IMG/VR virus record: IMGVR_UViG_3300003877_000012
Location: 1 to 22,820 of that record
DNA: 22,820 nucleotides
Source: a virus
Reading direction: 5' to 3' (one strand)
Shown: piece after piece, positions 7,103-21,425 of the stretch
How the letters are laid out: each line of letters opens with the position of its first letter
How positions within the stretch are numbered: position 1 is the first letter of the stretch
Notes under the pieces: generated by a model
Databases searched by the model: none
Told to the model about the DNA's origin: nothing
What the model saw: the letters and a program-made list of their open reading frames with translations, nothing else
Program-made: the position numbers and the translations under genes

Positions 7103-7447
7103 TTACTCCGATAATAGTTCTAGTTTCTCTTGTGCTGCTGAATACGCATTCGACGCTTTCGTAGCTGCACTCCGATTTTTTGGGTTGTCCGCAGCATTTA
7201 AGGCCGCTTGAGTCTTTTGCATTTTAATTAATGCACTGTCTGCTTCTCTGGCTACCTTCTCTCGTAGCTCTTCTGTCGCAGCGTCAATCTCAGATACTTT
7301 GGGCTTTGCTGCGTCCTGAGGATCTTTCGATTTAAGAAGCCGTCTGTGTACATCGTAAAAATTGCCGCCTTGCTGGAACTTTACTCCAGGGCGTAGAGCG
7401 CAGTGCCCCATAACTTTCGCGAAAGGTTTTTTTGGATCAAATTGCAT
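7103..7447 (-). CDS. Small late protein with alanine-rich helix (114 aa)
   Basis: An open frame with GTG codons extends further upstream to 7459, but ATG 7447-7445 is preceded by GGTGA at good spacing and is preferred. The N-terminus has MQFDPKKPFAKVMGHCALRPG; residues 50-114 are a charged, Ala-rich helix (AATEELREKVAREADSALIK), likely a coiled coil. It sits between a small acidic protein and the neck adaptor with only three bases to the adaptor start region. In many phages this place holds a small head-completion or assembly protein, but no family is recognised here. Confidence 0.65.
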   Translation of the reverse strand: MQFDPKKPFAKVMGHCALRPGVKFQQGGNFYDVHRRLLKSKDPQDAAKPKVSEIDAATEELREKVAREADSALIKMQKTQAALNAADNPKNRSAATKASNAYSAAQEKLELLSE

Positions 7448-7452
7448 TGCTG

Positions 7453-7677
7453 TCACCACATATTGTTGTGCGCTGGCCGACGAATATCCATCGCTTGAGT
7501 TAATGAGACCCCTTCTTCTAAGTCGCCTTCGGGGTAGTCCATCGATGCCTCGCTATTGTGCGTGTCATCGTCAAAATTTAAGGGTAGTTGAGTCATCTCG
7601 TCTGAGATTTCTCTAGGCGCTGGGACCACATCGTCATCGTAGTCCATGCCCGTTCTTGGATAACTGTAAAGTTTCAT
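7453..7677 (-). CDS. Small acidic protein (74 aa)
   Basis: The start has GGAG eight bases upstream. The product is strongly acidic, with DYDDDVVPAPREISDEM and NFDDDTHNSEASMDYPEGD, and carries no predicted membrane segment or cysteine. It looks disordered. It could be a small assembly factor acting on the basic proteins around it, but this is only inferred from charge and position. Confidence 0.6.
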   Translation of the reverse strand: MKLYSYPRTGMDYDDDVVPAPREISDEMTQLPLNFDDDTHNSEASMDYPEGDLEEGVSLTQAMDIRRPAHNNMW

Positions 7678-7704
7678 ATTTGTACTCCGTGGCCATGAGA
7701 TTCA

Positions 7705-7758
7705 GGGGTTTTTACACCCCATCATCGTCAATGCTCACTAAGTGGGTGACGCACTTAG
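7705..7758 (-). terminator. Two short hairpins after the decoration-type gene
   Basis: Within the 77-base gap that follows the 123-residue gene on the minus strand are two perfect small inverted repeats: CTAAGTG/CACTTAG (7738-7744 with 7752-7758, 7-base loop, covering the stop codon) and GGGGT/ACCCC (7705-7709 with 7716-7720, 6-base loop). Neither is followed by a T-run on the coding strand, so a classic intrinsic terminator is not shown. They may protect mRNA 3' ends or attenuate transcription below the capsid genes. Confidence 0.35.
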
Positions 7759-8126
7759 AACCAAGCAATCGTTACGTCTGCGTTAACCGCACCCGCAGTA
7801 GCTGCGCCACCAGAACCAATCACTACTCGTGAATTGGCTACGATAGGGTTTGCGTCCGTATTCGCTATAGTTGCGGCGTTAGCCACAGCATTCGCGCTAG
7901 ATATTGGAATTGGCAGTGTTGCGTACAAGTCGGTAGTCGTACCGTCCCCAACAACAATGTCCGTTGCCGCTGCCGTCACGCCTGTAGTTACTACAGACGA
8001 AATCGAAACGACCCGTCCAATTGCGTTTTCAGGCCCTGCGACAGATAAAAGCGCAGCAGCCGAAGCTACCGACCCCGCTCTTATCGAATACGTCACATAA
8101 ATCGGCTCGTCATAAGTTGCACTCAT
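7755..8126 (-). CDS. Probable capsid decoration / head-fibre protein (123 aa)
   Basis: The start follows AGGAG by a good distance. The protein is made almost wholly of Ala, Val, Thr, Ser, Ile and Gly (SVASAAALLSVAGPENAIGR, VVTTGVTAAATDIVVGDG), with no cysteine and very few lysines: a beta-sandwich of high stability. It lies two genes after the major capsid protein, where N4-gp56-type phages often carry a decoration or cement protein. A function in capsid stabilisation or as a short head fibre is therefore likely but not proven by any recognised motif. Confidence 0.6.
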   Translation of the reverse strand: MSATYDEPIYVTYSIRAGSVASAAALLSVAGPENAIGRVVSISSVVTTGVTAAATDIVVGDGTTTDLYATLPIPISSANAVANAATIANTDANPIVANSRVVIGSGGAATAGAVNADVTIAWF

Positions 8127-13578: not shown

Positions 13579-15162
13579 CTACTCGAAGCCGCCTAGGTCT
13601 GGTGCGAACGAGTCCCCAGAACTCCCAGTCGGTCGAATGTTGCGCCTGAAAAAGGTTATAGCTAGGGCGTCTCCGCAATCTGGCGACTTGATTCCGCGCT
13701 TCTTCATCTCGGCTTTACTCTCTAGTTGAAGCCGGTCTCCAGAGGAGTCAAACTTAAATGTCGTGGAGCACAGATCTTGTTGAAGCTCGTTCGCGTCTGG
13801 GATCTGACACCCTGTCTCGAACCATTGCTTCATCGTATGCCAAATCTCCGCTCGCTTGTTTTTGTACCGCTCCTCGTCGATGGCTCGCTCTGCGAACCCC
13901 ACACCGGTTACTTTAGCCCCGTAGCCTAGCTCAACGAGCCGGTCATACACTCCTGCCCCGTAACCTCCGGTCATGTCCACCCCAACGTGGTCCACTCGCC
14001 ACTGGCGCATCGCATGGATCACTCTCCCGCAGACCTCCATCGCATCCAAGTGGTTGTACCGTTTGTACCACAACATGCACCGCCCTTGCCGCACCACAAA
14101 CGCCGTACTGTCGTCTCCCTCTCTCGCCACGTCCACCCCAAGCACCACAGGGCCTGCGGGAACGTAAAAATTCTCGTTGAACTTGCGCCGCGCCTCCACC
14201 ACTAAGCTCGAAGGGATCAAAACATTGTTCACGGACGAATTGAATGCGTCCTCGGGGGTGCCCGGGTACTCCTGCATGAACTGCGCCACGTTGCCTTCTT
14301 TTTGAGCAATTTTCTGCCTCCTCCACGCTAACTGTCCGTGGCTTAGGTCGTGGATCTGCGCAAGGTCCCGCTCCTCGTCCGTGTACTCAAACCCATCCGG
14401 CGTGGGTAGTGAGTACTTAGGCTCCCAATACCACGGAATGAAACACTTAATGTACCCGTTCCACGCGGCATGAGGGTCCTCATCAATGTCGCAAGCGTTC
14501 TGCCACATGTTGTGGAAGTACCCTCCAAACCCTTTAGCTGTAGACTCCAAATACACCTCAGTGCCCGGCTCGTCTGGTATGCCCTCCATCGCTCCATCGC
14601 TGATTTCTTTCGCTGCTCTCCAATAAGCCACTTCAGATCCATGGAAGAATTGTATCGTCTGCGACCGCCCTGTGTCTCCCGTCTTGGCCGTGCCCACCGC
14701 ATACTCAGAATCAAGCTCCGAGAACAAAAGCTCCGAGACGTTTGATTTTTTTGTAATAGGCTTTAGCTCCGCAGGACAGTGCTCGTGGTATCGCTTGGCC
14801 ATGTTGAACAGGTTCTTAGTGGCGTCACCCTCATGCGTTAAAATAAACGCCTTTGTCCCCTCAACATGGATCGTCTTCCAGTACCCGCGCGCCTCCACCC
14901 ATGTGGATAGCCCTTGCTGCCGCGCCTTGCAGATTATGATCCGAACCTTGCCCCACCGCCTAATGCTCTCCTCAACCAGCGACGACAAATACGCCTGCGC
15001 TGCGTTGAACTTGAGCGGCTGCAACCCGTCCGTCTTAGTCTTAATCTTCAAGCACGTCGCCGCAAAATACTCGAAGTCTGTCATACACCGAAGACAAAAC
15101 TTGTCTATCTCCGCCTGGTGCCCCATCGACCCCTCTGCGCCCACATGCTGGTTATACTCCAT
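13579..15162 (-). CDS. terL: Terminase large subunit (packaging ATPase-nuclease)
   Basis: This 527-residue protein drives DNA packaging through the portal. The ATPase half carries a deviant Walker A (CKARQQGLST, 78-87), a Walker B-like strand (IQFFHGSEVAYW, about 170-181) with the acidic residue in SEVAY, and the coupling motif ESTAKGFGG (about 206-214). The linker has FMQEYPGTPEDAF (295-307). The RNase H-like nuclease half has LGVDVAREGDDST (341-353, first Asp), VGVDMTGGYGAGVYDRL (393-409, second acidic site) and SPDCGDALAITF (493-504, third Asp). All three nuclease acids are present, so the enzyme is probably complete. It overlaps terS by 11 bases. The QQGLST form of Walker A resembles headful-type terminases, which suggests but does not prove headful packaging. 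Confidence 0.92.
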   Translation of the reverse strand: MEYNQHVGAEGSMGHQAEIDKFCLRCMTDFEYFAATCLKIKTKTDGLQPLKFNAAQAYLSSLVEESIRRWGKVRIIICKARQQGLSTWVEARGYWKTIHVEGTKAFILTHEGDATKNLFNMAKRYHEHCPAELKPITKKSNVSELLFSELDSEYAVGTAKTGDTGRSQTIQFFHGSEVAYWRAAKEISDGAMEGIPDEPGTEVYLESTAKGFGGYFHNMWQNACDIDEDPHAAWNGYIKCFIPWYWEPKYSLPTPDGFEYTDEERDLAQIHDLSHGQLAWRRQKIAQKEGNVAQFMQEYPGTPEDAFNSSVNNVLIPSSLVVEARRKFNENFYVPAGPVVLGVDVAREGDDSTAFVVRQGRCMLWYKRYNHLDAMEVCGRVIHAMRQWRVDHVGVDMTGGYGAGVYDRLVELGYGAKVTGVGFAERAIDEERYKNKRAEIWHTMKQWFETGCQIPDANELQQDLCSTTFKFDSSGDRLQLESKAEMKKRGIKSPDCGDALAITFFRRNIRPTGSSGDSFAPDLGGFE

Positions 15163-15958
15163 AGACCTTGTCCCCCTTCAAGTCCAACAACTCTCGTTTC
15201 GAAACCTTCCTAGCCACCGCGCCAACACGCTTCGCCTGAATGTCCGCCGACCGATTCATCGCCGCCGACAGCCTCTTCACCCTCTCAGCCTGCGACTCAA
15301 TTGACGAAGTGGCTTTGTCGTCCTGACCATACTCGTGGTCCATCCGGTTCAACTCCTGCAACGCACTAAACGCCATCTTAGGATCTGCCAGCGCAACCAC
15401 CCTCTGCGACGTGACCGTCCCCGACTCCGAGCACACTACCTCATCCTCAACCTTCTTGACCTGCATCCCATACGCCACCAACTCCTTTAAAATCTTCCGC
15501 TTCCCCGTCCCTGACGCAATCGAAAACTCCCCCGCCAACTCCTTCAAATGCTCCCGGTCCGTCACAATCAACTTCTGCAACTCATCATGGTAGTATTTCA
15601 ACGATCTCGATGCCTTCACGAAACCACCAATGTACTCCGCCCGGGCCTTATCCGACGGCAAATGACACATCCGAGCCGATAACACCGCCAATCCTGGGTT
15701 TTTTCGCTTTAAAATCTTTGTGACGTTCCCAGGTGTCTCACCCAATTCCTCCACCACCTGTCCCATCTTCGTGTTCGCAATCGACGAGGCTACGACTCTT
15801 CGCTCCACGTTCGTCAAACCCTCCCACAACAACACAAAATCCGCCTTCGAGGGCCAAAAAGTATTGTCCACCTCCATCGCTAGATCCGACAACACCGCCT
15901 CTATCGAAGCGTTCATCAGCCGATTATTGTATCTCGGGACTTTATCAGGTCTAAACAT
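15152..15958 (-). CDS. terS: Probable terminase small subunit (DNA recognition)
   Basis: The 268-residue protein is the first gene of the late operon and overlaps terL, the standard place for the small subunit that binds the packaging site. Residues about 48-85 (NVERRVVASSIANTKMGQVV, then EELGETPGNVTKILKRKNPG) fit a helix-turn-helix: a helix, then GETPGNVTKILKR as recognition part. The C-terminal half is helical with basic residues at the end (SKRELLDLKGDKVYG), as expected for an oligomer that touches terL. The family is not recognised by exact match, so the call rests on place, length and the HTH. It directly faces the repeat-dense region, where its binding site might lie. Confidence 0.65.
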   Translation of the reverse strand: MFRPDKVPRYNNRLMNASIEAVLSDLAMEVDNTFWPSKADFVLLWEGLTNVERRVVASSIANTKMGQVVEELGETPGNVTKILKRKNPGLAVLSARMCHLPSDKARAEYIGGFVKASRSLKYYHDELQKLIVTDREHLKELAGEFSIASGTGKRKILKELVAYGMQVKKVEDEVVCSESGTVTSQRVVALADPKMAFSALQELNRMDHEYGQDDKATSSIESQAERVKRLSAAMNRSADIQAKRVGAVARKVSKRELLDLKGDKVYGV

Positions 15959-16118
15959 CGCGCCACCAGCGGTAAATGTAAATTTTCAGCTAGTGTATCC
16001 CATAGGACGCAGGATTCCTAGTTAAAGTAGTAGACAAATGCGGTTTTTTCGTTTTTTGGAATTTTTATTTTCACGCAGAAGCCGACCCTATATACATATA
16101 CCGACCAAGCCCCCCAGG

Positions 16119-16220
16119 TCTGAACCTCAAAACCTCTGAGAATTATTGCAAAAACGCGGGTCAAAAAAGGAGTCTCTTTTCGATTTTGGGGCCTAAAATC
16201 TGAGCCTCGAAACCTCTTAG
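16119..16220. repeat. Direct repeat of 22 bp, 80 bp apart
   Basis: The 22-base words at 16119-16140 and 16199-16220 (consensus TCTGARCCTCRAAACCTCTK, then AG) differ at three positions. They stand exactly 80 bases apart and lie 160-260 bases upstream of terS, so they could be protein-binding sites for late control or packaging. No function is shown. Confidence 0.6.
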
Positions 16221-16235
16221 CCGCTTAGGGTTTTA

Positions 16236-16262
16236 CTTGCGGCCCTTGCGGCCCTTGCGGGG
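16236..16262. repeat. 9-bp tandem repeat (cttgcggcc) x3
   Basis: Units at 16236-16244, 16245-16253 and 16254-16262, the last ending gggg instead of ggcc. A further partial unit (cttggg) follows. Confidence 0.7.
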
Positions 16263-16320
16263 CTTGGGTTGTACCGTGGCTGGGGGCTGTATGGCTAGTG
16301 GGCTGGGGGTCAGGTGCTCT

Positions 16321-16370
16321 GAGTGCTCGCAGGTGGAGGGCAGATCTTACCCTATACTATCGCATAGGGG
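16321..16370 (+). promoter_or_regulatory. Duplicated regulatory module, copy 1
   Basis: The module contains TGCTCGCAGGT at 16324-16334 and, exactly 29 bases from its start, TATACTAT at 16353-16360, followed by a base and GCAT. The same words recur with identical spacing at 16667-16716. TATACT matches a sigma70 -10 box at five of six positions, but no -35 TTGACA-like box is present, so an activator or a phage-specific factor would be needed. CCCTAT/ATAGGG at 16350-16355 and 16364-16369 forms a dyad across the -10-like word. Confidence 0.45.
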
Positions 16371-16490
16371 CACTGTCGAACGTCGCATACGGGGCAATCT
16401 GGGGGCTTGATTCCAGGCTTGAGGCGCGGAATTGCTGGCTTTTGGGGTGTTTCAGTGGTTTTGAGGTGTTTTTGGGTCTCGTGGGTGTCT

Positions 16491-16550
16491 TCGCGGATCT
16501 GTGGGGATCTTCGCGGATCTGTGGGGATCTTCGCGGATCTGTGGGGATCT
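16491..16550. repeat. 20-bp tandem repeat x3 with two GATC sites per unit
   Basis: The unit tcgcggatctgtggggatct occurs three times without any change (16491-16510, 16511-16530, 16531-16550). The ten bases before (gtgggtgtct) look like a decayed half-unit. Perfect identity suggests recent expansion or selection for an iteron. Confidence 0.9.
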
Positions 16551-16666
16551 ACCTAATGCCCTAGAATCGTCTCCGCTTCGCCTTTCGGCAGCTTCGATGT
16601 CTCGTTGGCTGCTCTTCTCAGATCTCGCAAGCAAAGTACTCAGCCTCTTAGAGCCTAGGCTTCGAG

Positions 16667-16716
16667 AATGCTCGCAGGTTGTACGATCGTTTAGGGGTAT
16701 ACTATGGCATTAGGAC
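16667..16716 (+). promoter_or_regulatory. Duplicated regulatory module, copy 2
   Basis: TGCTCGCAGGT at 16669-16679 and TATACTAT at 16698-16705, the same 29-base offset as copy 1, again followed by one base and GCAT. Between the conserved words the two copies differ strongly, so the words rather than the whole segment appear conserved. No gene with a ribosome site follows directly, so a small RNA or a replication primer transcript is possible. Confidence 0.45.
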
Positions 16717-16809
16717 TGCGAAATAATTCAGTGGTGGCGATTCTGGGCAGCTTAAATGCTGGGTTTTTGAGGCTGTTGAGCGCGGAACGCGGTTTTAAGG
16801 GTGAAAGTC

Positions 16810-16859
16810 GTTGCAGGTGCAAGAAAACCGTTGCAGGTGCAAGAAAACCGTTGCAGGTG
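16810..16859. repeat. 20-bp tandem repeat x2.5 containing TTGCA/TGCAA words
   Basis: The unit gttgcaggtgcaagaaaacc occurs at 16810-16829 and 16830-16849, followed by a half-unit at 16850-16859. Each unit holds TTGCA and TGCAA as an internal dyad (ttgcaggtgcaa). The TTGCA word recurs in the 11-bp arrays downstream. Confidence 0.9.
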
Positions 16860-16979
16860 AGGTGCACACGAAACGACACAATCGATGTCCTGTGATTTTC
16901 GACTTCTTCGAACACGGGTCGAGGGCACGTAAAATTCAGGTCAGTCTCAAACATCCCAAACCCCCCGCAAGGATCCAAA

Positions 16980-17031
16980 CCCCGAAGATCCTCAGTGATC
17001 CCCACCCCGAAGATCCAAACCCCGAAGATCC
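16980..17031. repeat. 12-bp repeats ccccgaagatcc x3
   Basis: Copies at 16980-16991, 17005-17016 and 17020-17031, with spacers of 13 and 3 bases. Each carries one GATC. Confidence 0.85.
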
Positions 17032-17036
17032 TCTCA

Positions 17037-17115
17037 GTGCAAGCCCCCCCTCGCACAGGGCTTGCACAGGGCTTGCACAGGGCTTGCACAGGGCTTGCAC
17101 TGGGGGGGCTTGCAC
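17037..17115. repeat. Iteron array A: 11-bp repeats inside 14-bp inverted arms
   Basis: Arms GTGCAAGCCCCCCC (17037-17050) and GGGGGGGCTTGCAC (17102-17115) are exact inverse complements. Between them cttgcacaggg repeats at 17061-17071, 17072-17082 and 17083-17093, with variant units on both sides. The array is the mirror of array B at 17354-17434. Confidence 0.9.
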
Positions 17116-17224
17116 CAGCCACAAACTTAGGCCCTATGCGGCCTAGCGCTCCGCTTCAAACGGGGGTAAATGCTCCCTTTCGATTTTTTTGCTCATTACT
17201 CCCAGATTCTTCGGATCCCCACTT

Positions 17225-17260
17225 TCTGATCCCCTCTCTGATCCCCTCTCTGATCCCCAC
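17225..17260. repeat. 12-bp tandem repeat tctgatcccctc x3
   Basis: Units at 17225-17236, 17237-17248 and 17249-17260, the last ending ac. Each has one GATC. The set lies between the two iteron arrays, about 40 bases before the A/T-only stretch. Confidence 0.9.
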
Positions 17261-17300
17261 TGCTTTTACCCACTTTCAGCAACTTTCTCTATTCTCTCTC

Positions 17301-17326
17301 TTATTTATATAATAATAATAATAAAA
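17301..17326. other. 26 consecutive A/T bases, candidate unwinding element
   Basis: From 17301 to 17326 every base is A or T, including a run of taa/ata triplets, inside an otherwise G/C-rich repeat region. It is flanked by array A (left) and array B (right). Such a stretch is what a replication origin needs for strand opening. It could alternatively be a simple-sequence expansion. Confidence 0.55.
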
Positions 17327-17353
17327 GAGTAGTAAAAACAAGCACTTACGTGT

Positions 17354-17434
17354 GGTGCAAGCCCCCCAGTGCAAGCCCCGTGCAAGCCCCGTGCAAGCCC
17401 CCCGCAAGCCCCTAGCGCTGGGGGGGCTTGCACC
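17354..17434. repeat. Iteron array B: mirror-image 11-bp repeats with inverted arms
   Basis: The 11-base unit gtgcaagcccc recurs at 17369-17379, 17380-17390 and 17391-17401, with a variant after it. Outer arms ggtgcaagccccccag (17354-17369) and ctgggggggcttgcacc (17418-17434) pair except for one extra G. The unit is the reverse complement of the array A unit with one base changed, so the arrays face each other across about 240 bases. Confidence 0.9.
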
Positions 17435-17480
17435 GATTCCGAGCTAAAAAGCGTCCGAAACCCTCAAAAATCCCCACTTG

Positions 17481-17504
17481 GATCCCCAGATCCCCAGATC
17501 CCCA
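17481..17504. repeat. 8-bp tandem repeat gatcccca x3
   Basis: Three exact units at 17481-17488, 17489-17496 and 17497-17504, directly before the 29-bp inverted repeat. GATC is thus spaced at eight bases. Confidence 0.9.
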
Positions 17505-17509
17505 AAACC

Positions 17510-17599
17510 CGATCACCAGTGGATATTCACTGATCCCCGTGAAAGTTCATTGGTGATCATGAAAATACATGGGGATCAGTGAATATCCACTGGTGATCG
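17510..17599. repeat. Perfect 29-bp inverted repeat with related word in the spacer
   Basis: Arms at 17510-17538 and 17571-17599 are exact inverse complements over 29 bases (core GATCACCAGTGGATATTCAC). The 32-base spacer holds a diverged further copy (GTGAAAGTTCATTGGTGATC, 17539-17558) and the dyad CATG-N6-CATG (17558-17571). Each arm itself contains CAGTG-N6-CACTG. A long cruciform or hairpin could form. The lack of a T-run argues against a simple terminator; an origin, operator cluster or packaging signal is more fitting. Confidence 0.9.
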
Positions 17600-17713
17600 A
17601 AAAATCCACGACCCTTAATATCCCCCACTACTAAAAGCCACTCCAGCCTAATAGCTTCCACCTCTAAACAACCTCCCAGATCCCCAAAGATCTTGCCACT
17701 AGATCCCTAAACC

Positions 17714-17729
17714 CTTGCATAACTGCAAG
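17714..17729. repeat. Small dyad CTTGCA-N4-TGCAAG
   Basis: CTTGCA (17714-17719) and TGCAAG (17724-17729) are inverse complements around a four-base loop. The TTGCA word links it with the iteron arrays and with the early promoter (17876, 17890, 17921). Confidence 0.6.
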
Positions 17730-17747
17730 TCGCTCAATTACGTCGAG

Positions 17748-17793
17748 TGGTCAACTTAACTAATATTTGGTCAGATTGGCCACATATTGGTCA
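17748..17793 (+). promoter_or_regulatory. Three TGGTCA sites at exact 20-bp spacing
   Basis: TGGTCA starts at 17748, 17768 and 17788; a degenerate fourth (AGGTAT) stands at 17808. The surrounding bases are not conserved, so this is not a simple tandem duplication. Near two helical turns between sites places them on one DNA face, suited to a cooperative regulator about 100-140 bases upstream of the early promoter at 17890. Confidence 0.55.
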
Positions 17794-17868
17794 AATAGGA
17801 TCACCTTAGGTATAAGCCTATACACCCACTTTTACTGATAGACCTAGCCTATGACAAGCATTTAATTT

Positions 17869-17918
17869 CATTTATTTGCAAGGAAACGCTTGCATTATCC
17901 TAATCATTGGATTATATT
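17869..17918 (+). promoter_or_regulatory. Early promoter P1, sigma70-like
   Basis: TTGCAT (17890-17895), 17 bases, TATATT (17913-17918). The spacer holds TAATCATTG at 17901-17909 and CATTTATTT lies upstream at 17869-17877. The same elements occur at 22548-22596 with almost identical spacing, which supports a real, regulated promoter. The transcript would start about 45 bases before the ATG at 17972. Confidence 0.7.
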
Positions 17919-17946
17919 GGTTGCAAGTCAAGGAAACGACCACTTA

Positions 17947-17974
17947 AAAAACAACCACAGAGGCAAGTAAAATG
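17947..17974 (+). repeat. Shared 28-bp leader, copy 1
   Basis: The 28 bases ending in ATG 17972-17974 are identical to 18200-18227. They include AACAACCACAGAGG, so GAGG serves as ribosome site nine bases before ATG. A related but diverged leader precedes ATG 22655. Confidence 0.85.
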
Positions 17975-18178
17975 TATGACTATTTAAATATGTTGCGCGC
18001 ATATAACGCAAAAACTTTGATCGGGCATAGATGTTTATCAATCAAAGACTTTACATCATCTTTTAAACGGGGTGTATATTCAGCGGAATGTGAAACAGGC
18101 TTCTATTCTGTGCCATTTTACGACTCGATCACGGGCAAGCAATATTCGTTACCTATTTTAAATACGTTGCGAACCTAA
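17972..18178 (+). CDS. Early protein of unknown function (68 aa)
   Basis: First gene after promoter P1, with GAGG nine bases before ATG. The product starts MYDYLNMLRAYNAKTLIGHR and is rich in Tyr and Ser, with two cysteines (22 and 40) and no membrane segment. No family is recognised. As the first early gene it may act on host functions or on replication, but the sequence gives no direct hint. Confidence 0.65.
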   Translation: MYDYLNMLRAYNAKTLIGHRCLSIKDFTSSFKRGVYSAECETGFYSVPFYDSITGKQYSLPILNTLRT

Positions 18179-18199
18179 AAAGTAACCCAAAGCCAAGTT

Positions 18200-18227
18200 A
18201 AAAACAACCACAGAGGCAAGTAAAATG
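18200..18227 (+). repeat. Shared 28-bp leader, copy 2
   Basis: Identical to 17947-17974 and ending in ATG 18225-18227. The preceding bases (acccaaagccaagtt) resemble those before ATG 22655 (acccaaagcaaactt), which shows the leader is a recurring unit in this genome. Confidence 0.85.
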
Positions 18228-18753: not shown

Positions 18754-19137
18754 ATGAGTATATCAAGTGAATTAGACAGAGAAGTGAAGCTTTATATTTT
18801 AAGTTGTGTGGATAATGAAGGGTTCGAGTGCTTAGATTATTGGACGCCTTGCGAGTCTATCCCCCAAAAAATTGATTTTCTTAGGGAACGGTTCGAGAGT
18901 GAATTCGGATTTAGAACAAAACAAATAGGGCGGCAAGCGGCCTGTAAGGAGTGGCTGCAAGGGTTAGCGCTGAGTATCGCGTATACGAATTACGATATTT
19001 TAGAGCTTGCGATTAAATGGGGTTCGTTGTCAAAATACCCCTCCAACGCGGAATGTCGCAAAATTTTAGATAATTACTTTAACTTTATGGCCGCCAAAAT
19101 GGTACAGCTTTTTAACGGATATAGGATACCAAACTAA
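18754..19137 (+). CDS. Conserved-type early phage protein (127 aa)
   Basis: AGAGGA upstream of ATG gives the ribosome site. The sequence has the order KIDFLRERFESEFGFRTKQI, GRQAACKEWLQGLALSIAYT, NYDILELAIKWGSL and ILDNYFNFMAAKMVQLFNGY. I recall small proteins in many unrelated phages with the same series (R-x-A-x-x-EWL-x-GL, NY-I-x-x-A-x-x-WG, Y-W/F-x-x-MA-x-K-x-x-QL), always of unknown function. It is helical, with no catalytic motif. It is the most likely of the early genes to have homologues. Confidence 0.7.
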   Translation: MSISSELDREVKLYILSCVDNEGFECLDYWTPCESIPQKIDFLRERFESEFGFRTKQIGRQAACKEWLQGLALSIAYTNYDILELAIKWGSLSKYPSNAECRKILDNYFNFMAAKMVQLFNGYRIPN

Positions 19138-20914: not shown

Positions 20915-21238
20915 ATGAACCAAATGTCACGATTAGAAGTTACGGTGTATCTAGGGATCTCAAAGAGCAGGTTCTATAAGCTCATTGACAAAGGGATCAT
21001 AAAACCATCAATCGATAGGATCTTGCGGGGCAATCGCGCTTGTGCTCATGCCTGGTCTGTTGAGTACATCGAGAGCATAGCTCCTAAGGTTGCGGAGTAC
21101 ATCCAAGCATCCAAGCGCGGAGAGGTGGAGAGCCTTCATCCTGACTACATCAAACTAAACCAGAAAAGCGAGGACCATCTTAATACAGTGTTCCGAGAGT
21201 TCTTAGGATCTAAGCAGCGGCATCGAGCGTATGAATAA
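20915..21238 (+). CDS. Helix-turn-helix protein, excisionase/MerR-like (107 aa)
   Basis: Residues 5-32 (SRLEVTVYLGISKSRFYKLI, then DKGIIKPS) form the winged-helix pattern of excisionase, AlpA and MerR-type DNA-binding domains: a helix, a turn GISKS, a recognition helix RFYKLI, then a wing. The remaining 75 residues are helical and basic. Starts at 20915 and 20924 are both possible; neither has a clear ribosome site. It lies behind P3 and overlaps the next HTH gene by eight bases. It may be a transcription regulator or a recombination directionality factor; no integrase is in the window to support the latter. Confidence 0.7.
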   Translation: MNQMSRLEVTVYLGISKSRFYKLIDKGIIKPSIDRILRGNRACAHAWSVEYIESIAPKVAEYIQASKRGEVESLHPDYIKLNQKSEDHLNTVFREFLGSKQRHRAYE

Positions 21239-21425
21239 ATTAAAGCAGTACCGGGAACACGCGGGCCTCACTCAGTATGAGCTATCGAGAAAAACGGGCC
21301 TTAGCTTGTCGATGATCAGTAAAGTCGAGCGCGATGAAACGGGCATATCGATCGAGAACGCGTTCTTCTTATCCGATGCACTGGGTGCAACCATGGAGGA
21401 AATTTGGGGGCTTAGGGTCTCTTAG
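21231..21425 (+). CDS. XRE/Cro-like helix-turn-helix regulator (64 aa)
   Basis: Residues 4-60 fit the HTH_3 (Cro/CI) domain: LKQYREHAGLTQYELSRKTG, then LSLSMISKVERDETGISIEN, then ALGATMEEIWG. The recognition helix is about residues 27-36 (SMISKVERDE). The protein is the domain alone, like Cro or small C-proteins. It overlaps the preceding gene, and its end overlaps by 14 bases the end of the convergent gene on the other strand. It would regulate P3 or the early/late switch. Confidence 0.8.
   Translation: MNKLKQYREHAGLTQYELSRKTGLSLSMISKVERDETGISIENAFFLSDALGATMEEIWGLRVS

Follow-up and report, generated by a model that had tools for sequence, protein, structure and literature searches.

Mirror-image iteron arrays around an A/T-only run mark a probable bidirectional replication origin in a phage genome fragment

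Introduction

What is the role of a noncoding gap of about 2 kb in which two arrays of a short repeated word face each other across a stretch made up only of A and T? The gap (positions 15959-17971) lies in a linear virus record from IMG/VR, a phage fragment of 22,820 nucleotides (22.8 kb) that was analysed in full and is here called the window. It separates leftward terminase and structural genes from rightward early genes and holds both arrays. To our knowledge most environmental phage origins are unmapped. An earlier note on this DNA had read the arrays as the two sides of a bidirectional origin bound by an initiator, and our analysis supports that reading as one drawn from sequence: the region is probably a bidirectional, initiator-dependent phage origin of replication. 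Four lines of evidence favor this assignment, the divergent noncoding gap, the stability minimum within it, the layout of the same gap in a near relative and the presence of similar arrays in unrelated phages that encode D5-like helicases.

Results

Gene context of the gap

The leftward genes of the window encode a tail protein, the major head protein, the portal and the large terminase subunit (TerL). The gene adjoining that of TerL is presumed to encode the small terminase subunit (TerS); this name rests on position, as the gene gave no significant match in Pfam or PHROG. The rightward genes, which begin at 17972, are small and mostly without names. Two early genes in a row have a near-identical leader, AACAACCACAGAGGCAAGTAAAATG (17945-17974 and 18199-18227). 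The contig ends 5 kb beyond the gap. Judged by the major head protein, this phage is related to environmental phages and more distantly to Vibrio phages, and one terminase relative sits in a Colwellia metagenome-assembled genome. A GC-skew minimum near 18.3 kb was set aside because skew is confounded by gene direction. The features discussed below are collected in Table 1.

Table 1 Features of the noncoding gap and of the genes at its edges, in window coordinates.
Feature	Position	Strand	Remarks
Large terminase subunit (TerL)	13579..15162	-	PHROG phrog_2, E 1.8e-29; marks contig as phage
TerL-adjacent gene, presumed small terminase subunit (TerS)	15152..15958	-	Left edge of noncoding gap; conserved in relatives
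20-bp tandem repeat TCTTCGCGGATCTGTGGGGA x3.2 with GATC sites	16488..16550	.	Outer repeat
20-bp tandem repeat CGTTGCAGGTGCAAGAAAAC x2.5	16809..16859	+	Contains TGCAAG core
Array A	17034..17117 (core 17037-17115)	-	Five CTTGCAC units in ~11-bp steps plus one degenerate unit; candidate initiator-binding half-site
GATCCCC repeats, 12-14-bp steps	17214..17262 (12-bp repeats 17223-17258)	+	Between array A and A/T run
A/T-only run, 26 bp	17301..17326	.	Candidate DNA unwinding element
Array B	17353..17436 (core 17354-17434)	+	Four GTGCAAG units in 11-14-bp steps plus one degenerate unit; candidate initiator-binding half-site
GATCCCCA x3	17481..17504	+	Outer repeat
90-nt near-perfect palindrome, GATC-rich	17510..17599	.	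41-nt arms, 90% complementary; single-strand hairpin z -13
CTTGCATAACTGCAAG inverted pair	17714..17730	.	Bears iteron core
Three TTGCAAG/CTTGCA sites	17875..17928	+	Flank possible promoter TTGCAT-17-TATATT, read by eye; possible operators for same protein
First rightward early gene	17972..18178	+	Right edge of noncoding gap

Two inverted arrays flank the least stable DNA of the window

The elements that the earlier note had described (facing reverse-complement arrays, their arms, 12-bp GATC repeats and a 26-base A/T run) were all present, and the TTGCA words it had listed were found at 16811, 17715, 17876, 17890 and 17921. The arrays are composed of 11-bp units of the word GTGCAAGCCCC. Array A contains GTGCAAG at 17037 and CTTGCAC at 17061, 17072, 17083, 17094 and 17109, and is closed by 14-nt inverted arms (17037-17050 and 17102-17115). 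Array B contains GTGCAAG at 17355, 17369, 17380 and 17391 and CTTGCAC at 17427, and its closing inverted arms are at 17354-17367 and 17421-17434. One unit of each array points the other way. Aligned with gaps, the arrays are inverted copies, 86% identical, of a single element of about 84 nt, and an ungapped comparison of the halves matched 48 of 84 positions. As in iteron-type origins, several copies of a short word follow one another at steps of roughly one helical turn.

This symmetry is far beyond that of shuffled sequence. The mirror 9-mer score across the A/T run was 69, the peak of the whole contig, against a mean of 0.8 and a maximum of 5 in shuffles and a contig median of 0; centers outside the array region scored far lower. 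The core TGCAAG/CTTGCA occurs 18 times in the 2.0-kb gap (shuffle mean 1.3, maximum 6) and 13 times in the remaining 20.8 kb. Seven of the core sites in the gap fall outside both arrays, a count that only one of 1000 shuffles reached (mean 0.95), and tandem repeats cover 17.7% of the gap as compared with 0.5% elsewhere in the contig.

The A/T-only run is also exceptional, since shuffles gave none longer than 22 bp and the second longest of the contig measures 14 bp. Nearest-neighbor stability, taken over 30 bp, reaches its contig minimum at this run. The run does lie between the arrays, as first noted, but off the center of symmetry, at 185 bp from array A and 27 bp from array B.

Searches with the gap itself returned little. 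The gap searched as DNA against phage and plasmid records had no match, Rfam matches in the window were below the curated cut-offs and reflected the palindrome and hairpins, and a search for the DnaA box TTATNCACA with at most one mismatch found none between 14911 and 18806 (15 in the whole window versus 17 expected).

A near relative retains the plan with a different word

A single TerL query found nothing, and an alignment of five TerL proteins gave L098 and L100. The closest relative by terminase, L006 (78%), is a contig that stops short of the array region. The nearest relative with an intact gap is L098, the TerL of which is 77% identical to that of the window. L098 has three copies of GGTTCAAGGTC (7393-7425), then the longest A/T run of the locus (7507-7526), then two copies of the inverted word CCGACCTTGAA (7750-7772 and 7783). 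It also has 23-nt arms that are 100% complementary, and its mirror 9-mer score was 48, the shuffle maximum being 5. The layout and the 11-bp step are those of the window and the word is another one; therefore, a near relative keeps the plan and not the word. The two words have only the weak core GT(G/T)CAAG in common, and the orientation of the units relative to the A/T run differs between the two phages. A second repeat family, AGCTGTTGGC, lies outside the L098 arrays on both sides (7164-7977).

In four further loci (L100, L008, L012 and L218) the mirror score was not above chance, and in L105 it was marginal. An A/T-rich run is nonetheless present in that gap in all five, along with tandem repeats in most. 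In L098, L100, L008 and L012, as in the window, no 30 bp of the locus are less stable than the A/T run. That of L008 aligns with the window run at 24 of 28 positions in the same orientation, a match that is only supportive because the sequence is of low complexity. The possibility that the earlier note named as refuting an origin, arrays varying freely between isolates as neutral repeats, is borne out in part: among the seven loci, strong mirror arrays were confined to two (the window and L098), while every locus retains the A/T run. The short TAGACA/TGTCTA pairs of L008 and L100 are no more than suggestive. A GGCCACGnnGTTACTGGG-like motif is found beside the A/T run in L098 (7341 and 7639), L012 (2036), L105 (852), L008 (1048) and L218 (7320), and is absent from the window.

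Two other sequences in the gap differ in how they are distributed among these phages. P1 oriR and other Dam-sensitive origins have a GATC cluster with repeats near an A/T-rich stretch, and the window resembles them in having GATC sites with repeats near its A/T run (30 in the gap; shuffle mean 6.3, maximum 16). However, the gap of L098 has no GATC and those of L100, L008 and L012 have two to seven, and thus the cluster is not a shared feature. Among the seven loci the enrichment is private to the window, and no conserved Dam-type GATC cluster was found. An element upstream of the presumed TerS gene (about 16073-16177 in the window, reverse complement) reads AGAGACTCCTTTTTTGA, then GGGGCTTGG..TATATAGGG..TCTGCGT, and is common to the window, L006, L098 and, in part, L105; it is possibly a promoter of the structural operon or a packaging-related site.

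The earlier note had advised seeking the window's own iteron word in relatives. In viral contigs no relative was found, and a looser form of the word gave only L198, which was rejected because its array is one-sided in a GC-rich contig. This phage contig has four to five tandem GTGCAAGCCAT units in 11-bp steps and a single orientation (1306-1347). Papers retrieved by a text search for the iteron words were unrelated.

The L098 word recurs in unrelated phages beside a winged-helix domain

A 20-mer of the L098 word matched, besides itself, two unrelated contigs, L191 and L192, and a looser pattern matched 22 contigs. Eight of the 22 (L192, L199, L201, L202, L206, L207, L214 and L215) have facing clusters around an A/T run, frequently arranged as + + + / - / + + before the run and - - / + / - - after it. 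L191 has a shorter form of the facing clusters. Contigs with a pair of copies only and no A/T run, such as L200, L203, L208 and L209, were excluded from the count. In the unrelated L199 and L192 the A/T run is again the least stable 30 bp. A distant DNA search of phage records with the L199 array gave no match.

L192 encodes a D5-like helicase (DUF5906, D5_N, Pox_D5) together with a family B polymerase. Relatives of this helicase are encoded in L199 and L206, and L201 encodes its C-terminal end. The C-terminal domain of the L192-type helicase, about 62 residues, recurs as a separate small protein immediately beside a GGTTCAAGG array, in L191 (19-384) and in L202 (9085-9744), the latter with two tandem copies of the domain. 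The domain matches Pfam Pox_D5 in L191 and, weakly, RFX/Cdc6 winged-helix domains in L202. It was modelled as a winged helix (pLDDT 82), and the best structural neighbors of the model, with modest scores, were the Cdc6/Orc1 and RFX DNA-binding domains. A profile of the domain matched residues 685-745 of PDB 7ola (E 0.0024), a protein annotated as DNA primase, which we take to be the SaPI5 primase-helicase.

A primase-helicase fusion is the candidate initiator of the lineage

The initiator gene of the window phage itself would lie beyond the end of the contig, which stops 5 kb past the gap. Given the complete relatives, the most likely candidate from their sequences is a fusion of an AEP-type primase and an SF3-like helicase. 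Such a protein of about 780 residues (RepB_primase plus DUF5906) is encoded by L190, which is the contig of L098, and by G003, G005 (by similarity only) and G006; DNA polymerase A is encoded by L190, G003 and G006. The helicase part matches PDB 6k9e/6k9c, entitled 'Primase' (E 1.9e-19). The start of the L190 gene is some 8.7 kb away from the origin-like gap, and the equivalent position in the window is past the contig end. A query with the early gene at 18754-19137 gave 13 loci, two of which lack a primase-helicase. The Pox_D5-type winged-helix domain linked to GGTTCAAGG was not detected in the contig of L098, and the model of the C-terminal region of the lineage protein was uninformative (pLDDT 39).

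Other explanations of the arrays

The strongest rival is that the arrays are operator clusters through which a phage regulator acts on the divergent early and structural promoters, with the A/T run as part of a promoter and no role in replication. The iteron core recurs near the early genes (17714-17730 and 17876-17927), a leftward-facing promoter-like site overlaps the A/T run (17336-17309), and two of the rightward genes encode helix-turn-helix proteins (20915-21238 and 21231-21425), all of which would suit a regulator. The consensus promoter scan that found the leftward site did not report the TTGCAT-17-TATATT pair of Table 1. However, a repressor does not need 26 bp of pure A/T, and unrelated phages having D5-like helicases or their DNA-binding domain likewise enclose their least stable DNA in dense mirror arrays of 11-bp units. 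We therefore consider operators without an origin unlikely, and note that operators for divergent transcription may coexist with an origin.

A second possibility is that the arrays are primase start hairpins on opposite strands, comparable to ssiA and ssiB of RSF1010, used by a RepB-type primase for strand-displacement synthesis. The RepB_primase domain of the relatives and the 14-nt inverted arms that close each array would fit, and the single-stranded folds of arrays A and B are more stable than those of shuffles. That gain is only mild (z -2.5 to -3.1), ssi sites need no tandem repeats, and closing arms comparable to those of the window were not found in the L098 arrays; thus this explanation seems improbable. 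RSF1010 has one hairpin site of about 40 nt per strand (PMC4434180). The window resembles its oriV in having a hairpin-capable element on each strand and relatives with a RepB-type primase domain, and differs in that each element consists of a series of 11-bp units in place of one site of that kind.

It is more improbable still that the region serves packaging (pac) or terminase binding. The gap is directly upstream of the presumed TerS gene, and relatives have a conserved element nearer that gene, but this element (about 16073-16177) is distinct from the arrays, the word of which changes completely between the window and L098 despite the similarity of their TerL proteins. Least probable of all is that the two halves are functionless copies of a small MITE- or REP-like mobile element inserted in opposite directions, for although inverted copies with terminal inverted arms would look much like this, there are no target duplications at either edge and no other copy in the contig, the 22-mer word is unmatched in the public viral contigs searched, and L098 has the same plan in unrelated sequence.

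Discussion

The origin reading suggests a mechanism, which we infer from the observed layout. Oligomers of a phage initiator would bind arrays A and B in opposite orientations. Within an array the units would be aligned on one face of the helix because 11-bp steps are about one helical turn. The bound oligomers would strain and open the A/T run between the arrays, and two replisomes would be loaded facing outward to give two outward forks. Given the additional core copies near the early genes, the same protein may also time early transcription and thereby regulate itself.

The nearest known systems are those of SaPI and SCCmec elements, in which a self-loading helicase (SaPI Rep, Cch2) binds the origin iterons with a domain at its C-terminus; SaPI Rep apparently does so as a pair of hexamers (PMC7581432). 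On this model each of the facing arrays would position one helicase assembly, and the two assemblies would point in opposite directions with the A/T run between them. The likenesses are short iterons, a candidate initiator of the D5/SF3-like helicase kind, the C-terminal domain of which would bind them, and the match of the winged-helix domain of the GGTTCAAGG phages to the C-terminal part of PDB 7ola. The differences are in the iteron word and in placement, as the SaPI-type origin is directly downstream of the helicase gene whereas that proposed for the window occupies a divergent gap at a long distance from the gene of the candidate helicase. Iteron plasmid origins likewise have tandem iterons adjoining an A/T-rich unwinding element, and plasmid Rep proteins bind the iterons and one strand of that element together (PMC4081077). 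In contrast to those origins, the arrays of the window flank both sides in mirror image, the gap has no DnaA box, and the relatives of the window phage encode their own primase-helicase and polymerase. The putative origin of the window would be a variant among iteron origins with self-loading helicase initiators.

More tentatively, with the odds somewhat against us, we suggest that unrelated phages share a modular class of origin, built of mirror iteron arrays that enclose an easily melted A/T run, and that within this class a change of word goes along with a change in the DNA-binding domain of the primase-helicase initiator. In such a class GGTTCAAGG would be read by a winged helix of the Pox_D5 type, which also occurs free-standing, and the window would be a version with its own word. 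The pairing of word and domain in unrelated phages, in which GGTTCAAGG goes with a small winged helix, reaches past this lineage and most deserves to be followed. The analysis offers a recognizable plan, in which arrays of 11-bp units face each other across the least stable DNA of a divergent gap, together with a candidate initiator family. If this is true, it would give a way of recognizing phage origins by their sequence only, and would supply a few portable pairs of initiator and iteron.
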